Shown here one piece after another: positions 22,784 to 27,701 of a stretch of 64,000 bases of DNA (the first letter of the stretch is position 1; each line of letters starts with the position of its first letter). Made by a program: the position numbers and the translations under genes. The notes beneath the pieces are model-generated. The model saw nothing but the letters and a program-made list of their open reading frames with translations. It searched no databases and was not told the DNA's origin. The stretch covers positions 1-64,000 of the forward strand of contig CAILEM010000072.1 of the NCBI GenBank assembly GCA_903833215.1. Reading direction: 5' to 3'. Source of the DNA: an uncultured Armatimonadota bacterium (GTDB taxonomy: Bacteria; Armatimonadota; Fimbriimonadia; Fimbriimonadales; Fimbriimonadaceae).

Positions 22784-23893
22784 ATGCAGTTCCCACATGT
22801 GGATCCCATTCCCATACCTGCACCGGTATGGCTCATGAAAGCGTTAAGTATCTTGACGCTCACCCTACACTTCTTTGCCGTTCAACTTTTGATCGGCAGC
22901 TTAGTTGCCGTCATTTACTTTAGCGTTAAGGCAAAAGGCGGTAAGGACGCTGCCAGTTCAGTTGCGGCGCTGGCAACTGCTCGACGGTTGCCTATCATCA
23001 TGACGTTCGTAATCAACCTCGGTGTGCCACCGCTGTTGTTCGCTCAAGTCCTCTACGGCCGAGCTTTTTACTCAAGCAGCATCTTGCTTGGAGTGGAGTG
23101 GCTCGCGGTTGTCTTCCTGGTAATGGCTTGCTACTGGCTGCTTTACAGAACAGCCGATAGAACCCTCAACGGAAAACCGGTTCACTGGCAAGCTGGCGGA
23201 GCACTGGTCCTAGCCGCATTGGTGGGCCACATCTACGCCTCAGTCATGACCCTCATGCTGAAACCAGAGGTTTGGCAAGAGATGTACGCCAAGACTGCGA
23301 CAGGTTTGCAGAGCGCTCCTCACGATCCAACGCTTGAACCACGATTACTTTTCGTGCTCGTTGGCGGACTTCTCCTCGGTGGTCTATGGTTGACGTTGCA
23401 CAGCAAGATGCAGACCATCGCCTCTGACGCGGGAGATCTACTTCGACGCACGGGAAGCATCATGGCTGTAGCCGGCGCGGTAGGTGAGCTCGTCGTCGGA
23501 TTCTGGGCGTATAGCGTTCAGCCTGCCGAAGTTCAAACGGGTCTTCACACAACGTTCTACACCGTATCCATGGGTATCTGGGGCGTGGGCTTCATTCTTG
23601 CCCTCCTCGGAGCAGTGATCCTCGTCGGACGCAAGGCAAATCCCGTTCTATTCTCCTTCGTCGGAGCGCTAGGTGCTTTCCTTGGTCTCGCCGGTGCAGT
23701 CATCGTTCGCGACGGAATCCGTGATGTAACCCTGCTTCAGAAGGGCTTCGACGTCTGGAAGCGCGTGGAGTACTCGAACTGGTTCGTCATTGGACTGTTC
23801 CTTCTTCTTCTCGTCCTCGGCATCGTAGCGATCGGCTGGCTTCTGCTGGTCATGAAGGCAGCGAAGCCTGTTCAAGAAAAGGTGATCTCATGA
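22784..23893 (+). CDS. Membrane subunit, divergent cytochrome bd-superfamily (CydA-like) paralog
   Basis: Polytopic membrane protein of 369 aa, about 9 helices, first gene of the respiratory operon. Its helix 1 places H29 (LTLTLHFFAVQLLIG) where CydA has its active-site heme histidine, and LGVEWLAVVFLVMACYWLLY places E105 at the CydA E99 position. The second glutamate of that helix is replaced by M114. Near the C-terminus VRDGIRDVTLL may replace the R/E-x-x-R-Q/K-P segment. This looks like a decayed paralog of the protein at 25457-26833, which could form a CydA-CydA' type heterodimer with it. The assignment rests on motif position only. Its stop overlaps the Rieske start by 4 bases. Confidence 0.6.
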   Translation: MQFPHVDPIPIPAPVWLMKALSILTLTLHFFAVQLLIGSLVAVIYFSVKAKGGKDAASSVAALATARRLPIIMTFVINLGVPPLLFAQVLYGRAFYSSSILLGVEWLAVVFLVMACYWLLYRTADRTLNGKPVHWQAGGALVLAALVGHIYASVMTLMLKPEVWQEMYAKTATGLQSAPHDPTLEPRLLFVLVGGLLLGGLWLTLHSKMQTIASDAGDLLRRTGSIMAVAGAVGELVVGFWAYSVQPAEVQTGLHTTFYTVSMGIWGVGFILALLGAVILVGRKANPVLFSFVGALGAFLGLAGAVIVRDGIRDVTLLQKGFDVWKRVEYSNWFVIGLFLLLLVLGIVAIGWLLLVMKAAKPVQEKVIS

Positions 23894-24375
23894 GCAAAAA
23901 CCCATCGAATAATCCCAGCATTGAGCCGGTAGAAGACGAGATTAGTCGAGCGAGCTTTATCAAAGTCACCGTAGGCGGGATGTGTCTCGCCTACGCGGCC
24001 GCCATCGGTTATCCCGTTTATCGCTACCTCAATTCCCCTGTCGCACGTGAGGCCGCGATGTCGGCAGTTACCGATGTCGCTCTTCCGGGAGCAGACAAGC
24101 TTCCGCTCGGCGGCGTTCTCCTGTTTAAGTTCGGACCGTATCCTTCAATGCTCATTCATCACAAAGATGACAGTTGGGTGGCATTTGACTCGGTCTGCAC
24201 GCACCTGGGTTGCACGGTTCAATACCACCCAGAGCAAGACAAGATCGTGTGCGCTTGCCACGGCGGCCAATACGATTCTCACACAGGCGCGAATGTAAGT
24301 GGACCGCCACCGAAGCCGCTTACCAAATTCAACGTTAAGGTTGCGACCGGCACCGTGACAGTTACGAGAGCATAG
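23890..24375 (+). CDS. Rieske 2Fe-2S protein of a bc-type complex
   Basis: Membrane-anchored Rieske iron-sulfur protein (161 aa). A single N-terminal helix (FIKVTVGGMCLAYAAAIGYP, ~23-42) anchors it. Cluster ligands are C103 and H105 in CTHLGC and C121 and H124 in CACHGG, with C108 and C123 forming the stabilising disulfide. It takes electrons from quinol at cytochrome b. ATGA overlap with the gene before, and cytochrome b starts 1 base after its stop, so the three are one operon. Confidence 0.95.
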   Translation: MSKNPSNNPSIEPVEDEISRASFIKVTVGGMCLAYAAAIGYPVYRYLNSPVAREAAMSAVTDVALPGADKLPLGGVLLFKFGPYPSMLIHHKDDSWVAFDSVCTHLGCTVQYHPEQDKIVCACHGGQYDSHTGANVSGPPPKPLTKFNVKVATGTVTVTRA

Positions 24376-24376
24376 T

Positions 24377-25444
24377 ATGTCGAAGATTTACGATTATCTG
24401 GATGAGCGTCTTTCCATCACAGAATTGAGGAAATTCGGTGAGAAGAAGACCGTCCCACTTCACAAATACTCGTTTTGGTACTACTGGGGAGGCATCTCGC
24501 TACTGTGCTTCTTAATTCAGTTGATCACAGGAATCCTCCTGATGATCTACTACAAGCCAGGACCAGACGCCTACAACTCCGTCAGAGCAATCACCTACGA
24601 CGTTGACTTTGGTTGGCTCGTTCGCTCAGCTCACAGTTGGTCCGCCACCATTTTCCTTCTGTCGGTTTTTGTACACATGTTCTCTGTGTACTTCATGAAG
24701 GCTTACAAAAAACCACGAGAATTTGGTTGGTGGTCCGGAATGGCCCTGCTGATTCTCGGTCTCCTCTTTGGGTTTAGCGGTTATCTACTGCCGATGGATG
24801 AGCTGTCTTTCACAGCAACCAAGGTCGGTCTGGCGATTCCAGAGAACATTCCTGTCGTTGGCCACGCAATTGCGAACCTCATGCGGGGTGGCCTCGAAGT
24901 ATCAGAGATCACTGTTCAGAGATTCTTTGCTTGGCATGCGGTTGTTCTTCCGCTGCTGTACTTACCTCTGCTGATGTTCCACCTGTTTCTGGTTCAGAAG
25001 CACGGCAATGCGATTCCCGAGAGTGAGGAAGCGGTACCTGTGGCCCAGCGCAAGACGATTCCATTCTTCCCCAACTTCCTTCTCAAGGACTTGGCGATGT
25101 GGCTCTTCACCCTCAATGTCGTCGCAGTGATGGCCTCTCTATTCCCACCTGACCTAGGCAAAATGGCGGATCCGCTGGGACCAGCACCGGTTGGCGTACA
25201 TCCCGAGTGGTACTTCATGAGTTCGTTCGAAACTCTGAAGCTCATCGGTCGAGTCATCACGGGAACGATCGGCGAAGCGGTTGGGATCACGATCTTCACA
25301 CTCGGCATGGTGCTCTGGTGCCTCATTCCGTTCTACGACGTTAACACACCTGGCGGGCTTAAAGGCAAACGCGCAACCTACTTCGGTCTGTTCTGTCTCG
25401 GCGTCTTACTTGTCACGACTTTACTTGGCTACTTCGTTGGCTAG
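24377..25444 (+). CDS. Cytochrome b of a bc-type complex, b6 and subunit IV fused
   Basis: Eight-helix cytochrome b (355 aa) of a quinol-oxidising bc-type complex. Heme ligands are H86 and H100 on one helix and H187 and H202 on another. The second pair has 14 residues between ligands, the b6-type spacing. The quinol-site motif appears as PEWYF in HPEWYFMSSFETLKL, in the part that matches subunit IV. Both halves are in one chain, as in many bacteria. No cytochrome c1 or f gene is in the operon; the cytochrome c fused to the next gene could take its place. Confidence 0.93.
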   Translation: MSKIYDYLDERLSITELRKFGEKKTVPLHKYSFWYYWGGISLLCFLIQLITGILLMIYYKPGPDAYNSVRAITYDVDFGWLVRSAHSWSATIFLLSVFVHMFSVYFMKAYKKPREFGWWSGMALLILGLLFGFSGYLLPMDELSFTATKVGLAIPENIPVVGHAIANLMRGGLEVSEITVQRFFAWHAVVLPLLYLPLLMFHLFLVQKHGNAIPESEEAVPVAQRKTIPFFPNFLLKDLAMWLFTLNVVAVMASLFPPDLGKMADPLGPAPVGVHPEWYFMSSFETLKLIGRVITGTIGEAVGITIFTLGMVLWCLIPFYDVNTPGGLKGKRATYFGLFCLGVLLVTTLLGYFVG

Positions 25445-25456
25445 GAATCAACCCTT

Positions 25457-26833
25457 ATGAATTATCCGGTTTGGGAAGTACAAGGTATTGGATTACCTTG
25501 GGTAGTCGGGATCATAGCGATCTTCCACGTCATGATCTCTCAGTTTGCAGTCGGTGGGGGCCTGTATTTGGCCCTCGTAGAGCGGAAAGCGATTAAGGAT
25601 GGGCGCAGTGATTGGTTCCCTCTGATCAAAGCTCACTCCAAGTTCTTTCTGCTATTGACCGCGGTCTTCGGCACCGTATCCGGCGTTGGTATTTGGTTTG
25701 CCATCGGCTTGATTCAGCCGGAAGCAACAAGCACCCTCATTCACAACTTCGTTTTTGGTTGGGCGATTGAATGGGTGTTCTTCCTCGTTGAGCTGGCCTC
25801 AGCAATCGTGTATTACTACACTTGGGATCGCATCCCTCAAGCTCTACACCTCAAAGTCGCGTGGCTCTATGCAGGCGCTTCGGTCTGCACCTTGGTAATC
25901 ATCAACGGCATTCTGTCGTTCATGCTGACCCCAGGAGATACTTGGCTTGGCGTTGCTGGCTCCGGTCACGAATCCACCTATTTCTGGAATGCGTTCTTCA
26001 ACCCGACTTACTGGCCGAGTTTGATGATCCGCTGTCTGGTCTGTGGTTCGCTAGCAGCAGTGTGGGCATTGGTCACCTTCTCTCGATTGGATGTCGAAGC
26101 CTATGGCAAGACTCGAACCGAGCTCATTCGATGGACAGTCCGTTGGCTCATTCCGGCATTCATTCTTATGCCGATCGCATTCCTTTGGTATGCGGCAATG
26201 ATTCCAGCCACCAACAAGCATTTGCTTGAGCTTGGTATGGCAACAATCGGTTCTGGTGCGTTCACGCAGGTGACTCGCATTGCCCTTCTCAGCATTATGA
26301 GTTCGGCGACGATCGCTGCCGTGGCGTACCTGTTTGCTTACAAGTATCCGCGCGACTTCAGCTCCGGGCATGCAATCGCGATCGTTGGTATCGCTTTGGC
26401 CGCCACAGCTTCAACGGAATACGCCCGTGAAGCGATTCGCAAGCCTTACGTTATCGGCAGCCACATGTACTCGAACGGCGTTCGCGTACATGATGTCGAC
26501 AAACTTAATCAGACTGGGTTCTTAACTCAGTCGATGTGGACTCCGACGGGCGCTGCCGTGACCGACGTTCAACGCGGAAAGGCAATGTTCGCTGGTCAGT
26601 GTATGTACTGCCACACGGTGAACGGATACCGCTCGATGAAGCACTTCCTAGAAGGCCGCGATGCCAAGGCAATCGGCAACATCCTGACGATGCTTCGCCA
26701 AAACAAGGTTGACTCCCCTTATCATGCCTACATGCCACCCCTCGTCGGCACTACCGAAGAGGTCGCAGCGTTGCAGACCTATCTGCTAACGCTCAATCAA
26801 GCCGCACCCGCCGGCTCCGTCGCACGAAAGTAG
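25457..26833 (+). CDS. Cytochrome bd-superfamily subunit (CydA-like) fused to cytochrome c
   Basis: A 458-aa membrane protein with about 9 helices and a C-terminal cytochrome c. CydA-type residues are kept: H24 (IFHVMISQFAVGGGLYLAL), E105 and E112 (AIEWVFFLVELAS) and E335 in REAIRKPYVIG, matching E. coli H19, E99, E107 and E445 at the oxygen site. The b558 ligand H186 is replaced by arginine (R202 in MIRCLVCG) and there is no Q loop, so quinol is unlikely to bind. CMYCH (392-396) binds heme c, with a candidate Met ligand in the YMPPLVG segment. This matches bd-superfamily families described as lacking the quinol site. It would accept electrons from the bc core and may reduce oxygen. Last gene of the operon. 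Confidence 0.8.
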   Translation: MNYPVWEVQGIGLPWVVGIIAIFHVMISQFAVGGGLYLALVERKAIKDGRSDWFPLIKAHSKFFLLLTAVFGTVSGVGIWFAIGLIQPEATSTLIHNFVFGWAIEWVFFLVELASAIVYYYTWDRIPQALHLKVAWLYAGASVCTLVIINGILSFMLTPGDTWLGVAGSGHESTYFWNAFFNPTYWPSLMIRCLVCGSLAAVWALVTFSRLDVEAYGKTRTELIRWTVRWLIPAFILMPIAFLWYAAMIPATNKHLLELGMATIGSGAFTQVTRIALLSIMSSATIAAVAYLFAYKYPRDFSSGHAIAIVGIALAATASTEYAREAIRKPYVIGSHMYSNGVRVHDVDKLNQTGFLTQSMWTPTGAAVTDVQRGKAMFAGQCMYCHTVNGYRSMKHFLEGRDAKAIGNILTMLRQNKVDSPYHAYMPPLVGTTEEVAALQTYLLTLNQAAPAGSVARK

Positions 26834-26842
26834 TCATCGATC

Positions 26843-26884
26843 AAATAGGGTGGTATCTGGTTAGCAGATACCACCCTATTTTGC
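26843..26884 (+). terminator. Strong terminator of the respiratory operon
   Basis: A perfect 17-bp stem (26843-26859 with 26865-26881) with a 5-base GTTAG loop. The stem contains GGGTGGTATCTG and ends in TTTT. It starts 9 bases after the stop of the last operon gene. Confidence 0.85.
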
Positions 26885-27077: not shown

Positions 27078-27701
27078 TCAATTCAACCATTGGCGGATTT
27101 TCCCTGTGCACTTTGCACAGAATTTGCTGGATGAATCGGGCATCAATCCCTTCCCTTTTCCATCGACCATGATGCATTTCGCGTCAGGGCAGTGTGGAAG
27201 GCCCAAGGTGTGGCCGATTTCGTGGACCGCTGTTTTGCCGATTTGACGCCGCGCTCGGAATGACGACACGACACAGTTCGCCCCACCGAGTTGGCCCAAA
27301 CCCATAATTCCGTAATCCTCATGCCCGTGAGCTGGCGTTGAGATATCTTTGTCGGTCACGACAATCACTTTGCTTAGCCCAACCTTTGGGGCAGACACCA
27401 TGATCTTCTCTGCTCGATACCTTGATCGAGGCGAATAGTAGGCGGATTTGAGCATATCAACCCCCTTCAACTCGATTACCGAGAGCTTGAATGTTTGCTC
27501 GAGAGCGTTCTCCACGTCGTCGAGTGTTTGCCGCTTTGGGTTGCCCATCGGCAACACGGCCATCCCCAAGAGAGTTCGGCGATCGGCGCGTGATGTGTGG
27601 ACGCCTGAATTGCAGCCGCTGGAGATAATCAGGGCGAGGGATGCGGGCAGGACGACACAGCTGGCCCAAGGTTTGGATTTTCTTTGTCGCAACCTATTCA
27701 T
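27078..27701 (-). CDS. Archaemetzincin-like zinc metalloprotease, lipoprotein
   Basis: Predicted zinc protease (207 aa) of the archaemetzincin family (M54). The full signature is present: HEIGHTLGLPHC with the catalytic Glu and three His, a C-x4-C-x-M segment (CPDAKCIM, Met-turn) and a C-terminal CAKC that with the earlier cysteines forms the structural zinc site. The N-terminus is a lipoprotein signal with lipobox ISSGC, so the enzyme is probably membrane-tethered outside the cytoplasm. Most archaemetzincins have no export signal, which makes this unusual. Substrate unknown. It is flanked by two copies of the same REPIN-like repeat. Confidence 0.85.
   Translation of the reverse strand: MNRLRQRKSKPWASCVVLPASLALIISSGCNSGVHTSRADRRTLLGMAVLPMGNPKRQTLDDVENALEQTFKLSVIELKGVDMLKSAYYSPRSRYRAEKIMVSAPKVGLSKVIVVTDKDISTPAHGHEDYGIMGLGQLGGANCVVSSFRARRQIGKTAVHEIGHTLGLPHCPDAKCIMVDGKGKGLMPDSSSKFCAKCTGKIRQWLN

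Follow-up and report, generated by a model that had tools for sequence, protein, structure and literature searches.

A conserved four-gene unit in Armatimonadota joins a cytochrome bc core to a cytochrome c-fused, quinol-site-less protein of the cytochrome bd superfamily

PMC13189123 and PMC10839748 cite a division of the cytochrome bd superfamily into qOR, OR-C and OR-N, with a quinol site in qOR only, which they credit to Murali, Gennis and Hemp (2021); the OR-C family is named in these papers and in PMC11707229. Members without a quinol site are known mainly from sequence. In the case of OR-N, cytochrome c is thought to be the electron donor to the CydAA' pairs, and donor, acceptor and partners were all stated to be untested (PMC10839748). 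OR-N5 genes lie downstream of alternative complex III (ACIII) genes in Nitrospirales (PMC12342949), and in Nitrospira moscoviensis a Rieske/cytochrome b cluster stands beside bd-like_1 and bd-like_2, for which a III-IV supercomplex was proposed (PMC6606698). Here we describe a four-gene unit at positions 22784-26833 of a 64,000-nucleotide stretch (the window) of contig CAILEM010000072.1, from an uncultured Armatimonadota bacterium (GCA_903833215.1), in which genes for a Rieske protein and a cytochrome b stand between those of two bd-superfamily proteins. An earlier prediction made from the sequence of the window (the original prediction) had proposed a bc core together with a cytochrome c-fused bd protein lacking the quinol site and a second paralogue of the same superfamily, and this was borne out by profiles, gene order and 28 relatives. 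The same prediction correctly treated bd families without a quinol site as established knowledge; they are already published, and so is the occurrence in Nitrospira of bd-like oxidase genes next to those of complex III.

The unit is tightly packed on the plus strand and comprises four open reading frames in the order A, R, B and D. Gene A (22784-23893) encodes a protein of 369 residues with about nine predicted transmembrane (TM) helices, assigned by hhalign and residue conservation as a CydA-superfamily paralogue (a putative A' subunit). Gene R (23890-24375) encodes a Rieske 2Fe-2S protein (PF00355, 1.1e-12) with the motifs CTHLGC (residues 103-108) and CACHGG (residues 121-126), and gene B (24377-25444) a fused b6-type cytochrome b of 355 residues (PF00033, 5.5e-46; PF00032, 6.6e-6). 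The product of gene D (25457-26833) has 458 residues and about eight TM helices, and was identified as a bd-superfamily oxidase-like subunit with a C-terminal cytochrome c (PF01654, 1.3e-14; PF00034, 5.2e-4; profile alignment to 5DOQ). Genes A and R overlap by 4 bp, R and B are separated by 1 bp, and B and D by 12 bp. Directly 3' of D, a 17-pair hairpin whose 3' arm is rich in U (26843-26881, plus strand; dG -28.3 kcal/mol, z -7.4) probably closes the transcription unit; it was absent from the output of a simple consensus scan. As far as the sequence can tell, A-R-B-D is a single transcription unit.

The Rieske ligands of R were invariant in 25 sequences, and the haem histidines of B (H86, H100, H187 and H202) and its PEWY motif (residues 276-279) were conserved in 25-26 sequences. 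At the level of these motifs R and B constitute a bc-complex core, having the Rieske cluster ligands, the four cytochrome b histidines and the PEWY Qo motif. The four-gene unit contained no gene for a c1 or cytochrome f subunit, its sole c-type haem motif being the one fused to D, and no CydB-like gene, in agreement with the original prediction.

Analyses of D indicated that it is a member of the bd superfamily whose active-site positions are retained and whose quinol site is lost. It scored 54.0 bits against PF01654 (Cyt_bd_oxida_I; cut-off 26.2) and matched canonical CydA, represented by an hhalign profile built from 30 Armatimonadota loci, at 98%. Its residues were mapped onto Geobacillus CydA (5DOQ) by alignment of a profile built from 35 relatives (E 7e-13), which placed H24 at H21, E105 at E101, E112 at E108, R192 at H186, E325 at E378, R328 at R381 and E321 at W374. 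We take H186 of 5DOQ to be the b558 ligand, H21 and E378 to be the ligands of the active-site haems, and W374 to be the Trp between the haems. Across 42 D sequences from Armatimonadota, Thermus, Agrobacterium and Methylosinus, H24, E105, R192, E321, R324, E325, R328, P330, C382, C385, H386 and M426 were invariant, and position 112 was Glu or Asp. Because H24 and E325 are conserved and an Arg replaces H186, both active-site haem-ligand positions are retained and the b558 site is missing. The original prediction had listed H24, E105 and E112 as oxygen-site residues, each of which is conserved with few or no exceptions among the relatives, and had noted the loss of the b558 histidine; two of its residue numbers were in error, as "E335" is E325 and "R202" is R192. 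A second invariant Glu, E321, is present besides E325, at the position of W374.

Loss of the Q loop, which had also been predicted, was evident from the loop between TM6 and TM7, of about 22 residues, and from the span between R192 and E325, which is 133 residues vs 192 for H186-E378 in 5DOQ. Lacking both the Q loop and the b558 ligand, D is not a canonical quinol oxidase. The predicted cytochrome c domain was likewise confirmed, with a PF00034 match to residues 370-458 (26564-26830), CMYCH at residues 382-386 and M426 as the likely axial ligand. The numbers of Lys/Arg residues on the odd loops of D (4, 2, 2 and 2) vs the even loops (0, 0, 0 and 2) suggest an outside N-terminus, eight TM helices and a periplasmic cytochrome c. 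Compared to canonical CydAB (5DOQ), D therefore retains the two active-site haem-ligand positions and the equivalents of E101, E108 and R381, whereas none of the features of the canonical qOR family (the b558 His, the Q loop and a CydB partner) was found, a cytochrome c is fused to it, and its partner A is a CydA paralogue.

Protein A had no Pfam, NCBIfam or PDB match by sequence search, as might be expected if A and D belonged to a non-haem polytopic family whose resemblance to CydA is fortuitous. By hhalign, the A family matched D at 97.8% (E 1e-12) and canonical CydA at 80% (1e-5), with clean controls: CydB gave 0.3%, cytochrome b 3.3%, and NrfD, ActC, COX1, COX3, ActF and CtaB 0.1-1.5%. 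These matches, the score of D over the Pfam cut-off, its profile match to 5DOQ and the invariance of its ligand residues all argue against a chance resemblance, an explanation that for D is largely refuted by sequence and that we regard as scarcely credible overall.

The alignments placed H29 of A with the first haem-ligand His of CydA, and R309, D310 and R313 with R324, E325 and R328 of D. H29, R187 and R309 were invariant in all 40 of the A sequences, and Q88, Y117 and Y121 were nearly so; at position 310, every protein of the four-gene group had Asp, and the others had Glu, His, Gln or Phe. A had been described originally as a decayed paralogue that kept H29 and E105. H29 is indeed kept, but E105 occurs in only one of 25 four-gene relatives, namely the window protein itself, with Gln in its closest relatives, and was ruled out as an oxygen-site residue. 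The non-synonymous distance between near relatives of A was about 0.22, with synonymous sites saturated or nearly so, and this low divergence, together with the invariant residues, argues that A is maintained and not decaying. On the profile evidence, then, A is a maintained paralogue within the CydA superfamily. The gene pairing of CydAA' systems was also found, as A and D were adjacent or in the same operon in the four-gene loci and in nearly all two-gene loci, and we infer that D and A form a CydAA'-style dimer in which A takes the place of CydB.

Homologues of D were present in 61 of 291 Armatimonadota genomes. The order A-R-B-D was intact in 24 of the 25 four-gene-type loci fetched, the other being broken by a contig end. 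Among six genomes read later, it was complete in four (28 intact relatives in total, more than chance would give), G213 had all four genes with a stop noted inside the D match, and the sixth, G080, had R and B only. The four-gene form covers at least six families, and its D proteins formed one clade in a quick tree (SH-aLRT 93), consistent with a bc core having joined a pre-existing D-A pair only once. No flanking genes conserved across the A-R-B-D loci were found; in the window, the unit is preceded by genes for an esterase and a DinB protein and is followed, just past the hairpin on the minus strand (27078-27701), by a gene for a lipoprotein-like M54/archaemetzincin-type peptidase.

The cytochrome b of the unit belongs to a subfamily with 51-100% identity, the next matches being at or below 46%. 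This subfamily occurred in 32 genomes and was beside D in 31 of them (Fisher p 6e-41, a value that overstates independence, as the genomes are related), which supports a dedicated coupling of the subfamily with D. This linkage bears on a rival explanation in which the two parts, although co-expressed, stay separate and share a soluble cytochrome c pool, with D-A acting alone as it must in genomes where it has no bc core. Other Armatimonadota, as well as Thermus, Agrobacterium and Methylosinus, do have D-A pairs without R and B, and G080 has R and B without D-A; the one-to-one linkage and the lack of any separate c gene in the unit run counter to this explanation, and we consider it unlikely.

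The pairs that lack a bc core were found in a second set of Armatimonadota families, with D and A side by side and no R or B in the stretches read, and on plasmids of Thermus thermophilus (L087:6235-8801), Agrobacterium (L088:9001-11564) and Methylosinus (L089:8983-11604) (tblastn, about 29% identity). The Thermus pair adjoins a gene for a metal ABC transporter substrate-binding protein, and the two alphaproteobacterial ones lie next to a histidine kinase-like/response regulator pair, with methanobactin genes nearby in Methylosinus. The A partners on these plasmids are annotated as "hypothetical", except in Agrobacterium, where the annotation is "cytochrome C" though the protein has no CxxCH motif. 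Of 15 A proteins that lie outside the four-gene group, eight (e.g., L057, L059 and L088) had His at position 190, in the numbering of the window protein. This position, which is Phe or Tyr in the four-gene group, maps to the b558 ligand by profile alignment, and an additional haem may be bound by A in the pairs without a bc core. Scans of viral contigs with both alignments gave no match. Mutual exclusion of D and canonical CydA in family f1 was considered and set aside as not significant (20 and 24 of about 85 genomes, three with both, p 0.16). Both a canonical CydA and a D-type protein were present in three genomes, nearly complete and belonging to the same genus (L062 in G089; L100-L102 in G089, G088 and G090); none of the three had a COX1 match, and a bc-less D-A pair was seen in G089.

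Based on these observations, we think it likely that the unit is a self-contained quinol:oxygen oxidoreductase in which electrons would pass from menaquinol through B and the Rieske protein to the haem c of D, then to the haem pair of D and to O2. Menaquinol, which we assume to be the quinol species, would be oxidized at the Qo site of B (PEWY). From R, one electron would move to the cytochrome c domain of D on the periplasmic side, which would stand in for c1 or cytochrome f, and then to two high-spin haems, liganded by H24 and E325 of D, at which O2 would be reduced; A would be paired to D. The strongest argument for this pathway is that the lost quinol site and gained haem c of D, on the one hand, and a dedicated quinol-oxidizing core, on the other, each explain the other. 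Beyond the homology, residues, gene order and linkage described above, we infer haem binding and O2 reduction by D-A, the A-D dimer, direct transfer from the Rieske protein to D and a stable supercomplex; a Q-cycle would make the unit more energy-conserving than canonical cytochrome bd. In the fuller proposal, the four subunits would form a quinol:O2 supercomplex, with electrons passing directly from the complex III core, via the cytochrome c fused to the oxidase, into a copper-free oxidase of the bd superfamily; a bd-type oxygen site would in this way acquire a Q-cycle, and the supercomplex would be the only O2 reductase in some lineages. This proposal stands at about even chances in our estimation.

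The respiratory setting of the unit was examined in the host genome (6.2 Mb, 99.97% complete) and in G248, a relative (98% complete, 2% contaminated) that has the A-R-B-D unit and complex I. The host genome had no canonical CydA and one copy of COX1, located within a cluster in which the ACIII genes run straight into those of a caa3 oxidase (L096:5856-18843, G000:C153), and ACIII-caa3 is probably its main respiratory chain. A second bc-like cluster in the host (L095:1055-6316, G000:C116) encodes a Rieske protein, a split cytochrome b6 and subunit IV, and a multi-haem protein of 1052 residues with many cytochrome c domains; a second NrfD-type cluster (L097:4123-6878, G000:C99) has a multi-haem cytochrome and a ferredoxin-type subunit. 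G248 had no COX1, COX2 or canonical CydA, which leaves the unit as its only recognized O2-reductase candidate. A 2-oxoglutarate dehydrogenase match over the cut-off was found in neither genome, and this enzyme was uninformative as an aerobic marker.

These genomes also bear on an explanation in which the electron path is the same and the D-A haem pair reduces nitric oxide (NO), or protectively scavenges O2, peroxide or NO. Such a role would suit a noncanonical active site with E321 at the position of Trp374, and a host already equipped with ACIII-caa3. However, the oxygen-site residues E105, E112, E325 and R328 are kept, and G248 is a nearly complete relative without another recognized O2 reductase; we consider such a role unlikely. 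Reverse electron transport, in which a periplasmic donor would reduce quinone through D-A and the bc core, has been published as an idea for the Nitrospina bd-like proteins of nitrite oxidizers (PMC3578206). As no donor oxidoreductase gene was found within the unit or conserved beside it, this direction seems very improbable here.

Several points weigh against the unit being a quinol:oxygen oxidoreductase. The function of D-A is a prediction from sequence, and the replacement of the canonical inter-haem Trp by E321 means that the active site of D differs from that of canonical CydA. The ACIII-caa3 chain of the host makes A-R-B-D an extra branch in this organism. In G080, the only one of the 32 genomes in which the Rieske/cytochrome b pair is not beside D, the pair is followed directly by a CcmF gene (L130:4686-6324, G080:C166), and the bc core can thus work with another partner. 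Finally, the AlphaFold2 models of A and D were poor (pLDDT 52 and 44), because the alignments had only three rows (the window, L002 and L003), and were insufficient for a check of the haem pocket in three dimensions. Foldseek with these models ranked bd oxidases at the top for A (prob 0.80-0.92, E 0.1) and retrieved ten CydA chains for D (best E 1e-3), results to which we give little weight.

Among described systems, the OR-N proteins of Nitrospira and Nitrospina share with D-A their superfamily, the loss of the quinol site, the presence of two CydA-type paralogues and proximity to complex III genes (PMC6606698, PMC12342949, PMC10839748, PMC3578206). They differ in that the Nitrospina protein has 14 TM helices, with three helices replacing the Q loop (PMC3578206), neither of which was found in D with its eight or so TM helices and short loop, and in that their c-type cytochromes are encoded by separate genes, whereas D has a fused mono-haem cytochrome c and a bc core in the same operon. 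CydA-cytochrome c fusions noted in delta-proteobacteria lack CydB, as D does, but are multi-haem and were set aside by the authors, with neither an A partner nor a bc core described (PMC5322542). The actinobacterial bcc-aa3 supercomplex likewise joins complex III to an oxidase without a soluble cytochrome c; its oxidase is a haem-copper aa3 enzyme, whereas here it would be bd-like, with the haem c on the oxidase subunit (PMC4505504).

Our search of the literature, whose coverage was incomplete, found no description of an A-R-B-D unit. The minimal conserved four-gene unit appears to be new, with its cytochrome c on the oxidase, a cytochrome b subfamily dedicated to it and its spread across Armatimonadota. 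As to the family of D-A, members of OR-C, one of the two families without a quinol site, are reported to carry cytochrome c, and D-A probably belongs there.

The A family currently lies outside every Pfam model. As one operon spells out the donor side, the role of quinol-site-less bd proteins becomes directly testable with four genes. If the proposed pathway is correct, the unit would depart from the usual rule for bd-type oxidases, by which they bypass complex III and are less energy-conserving.

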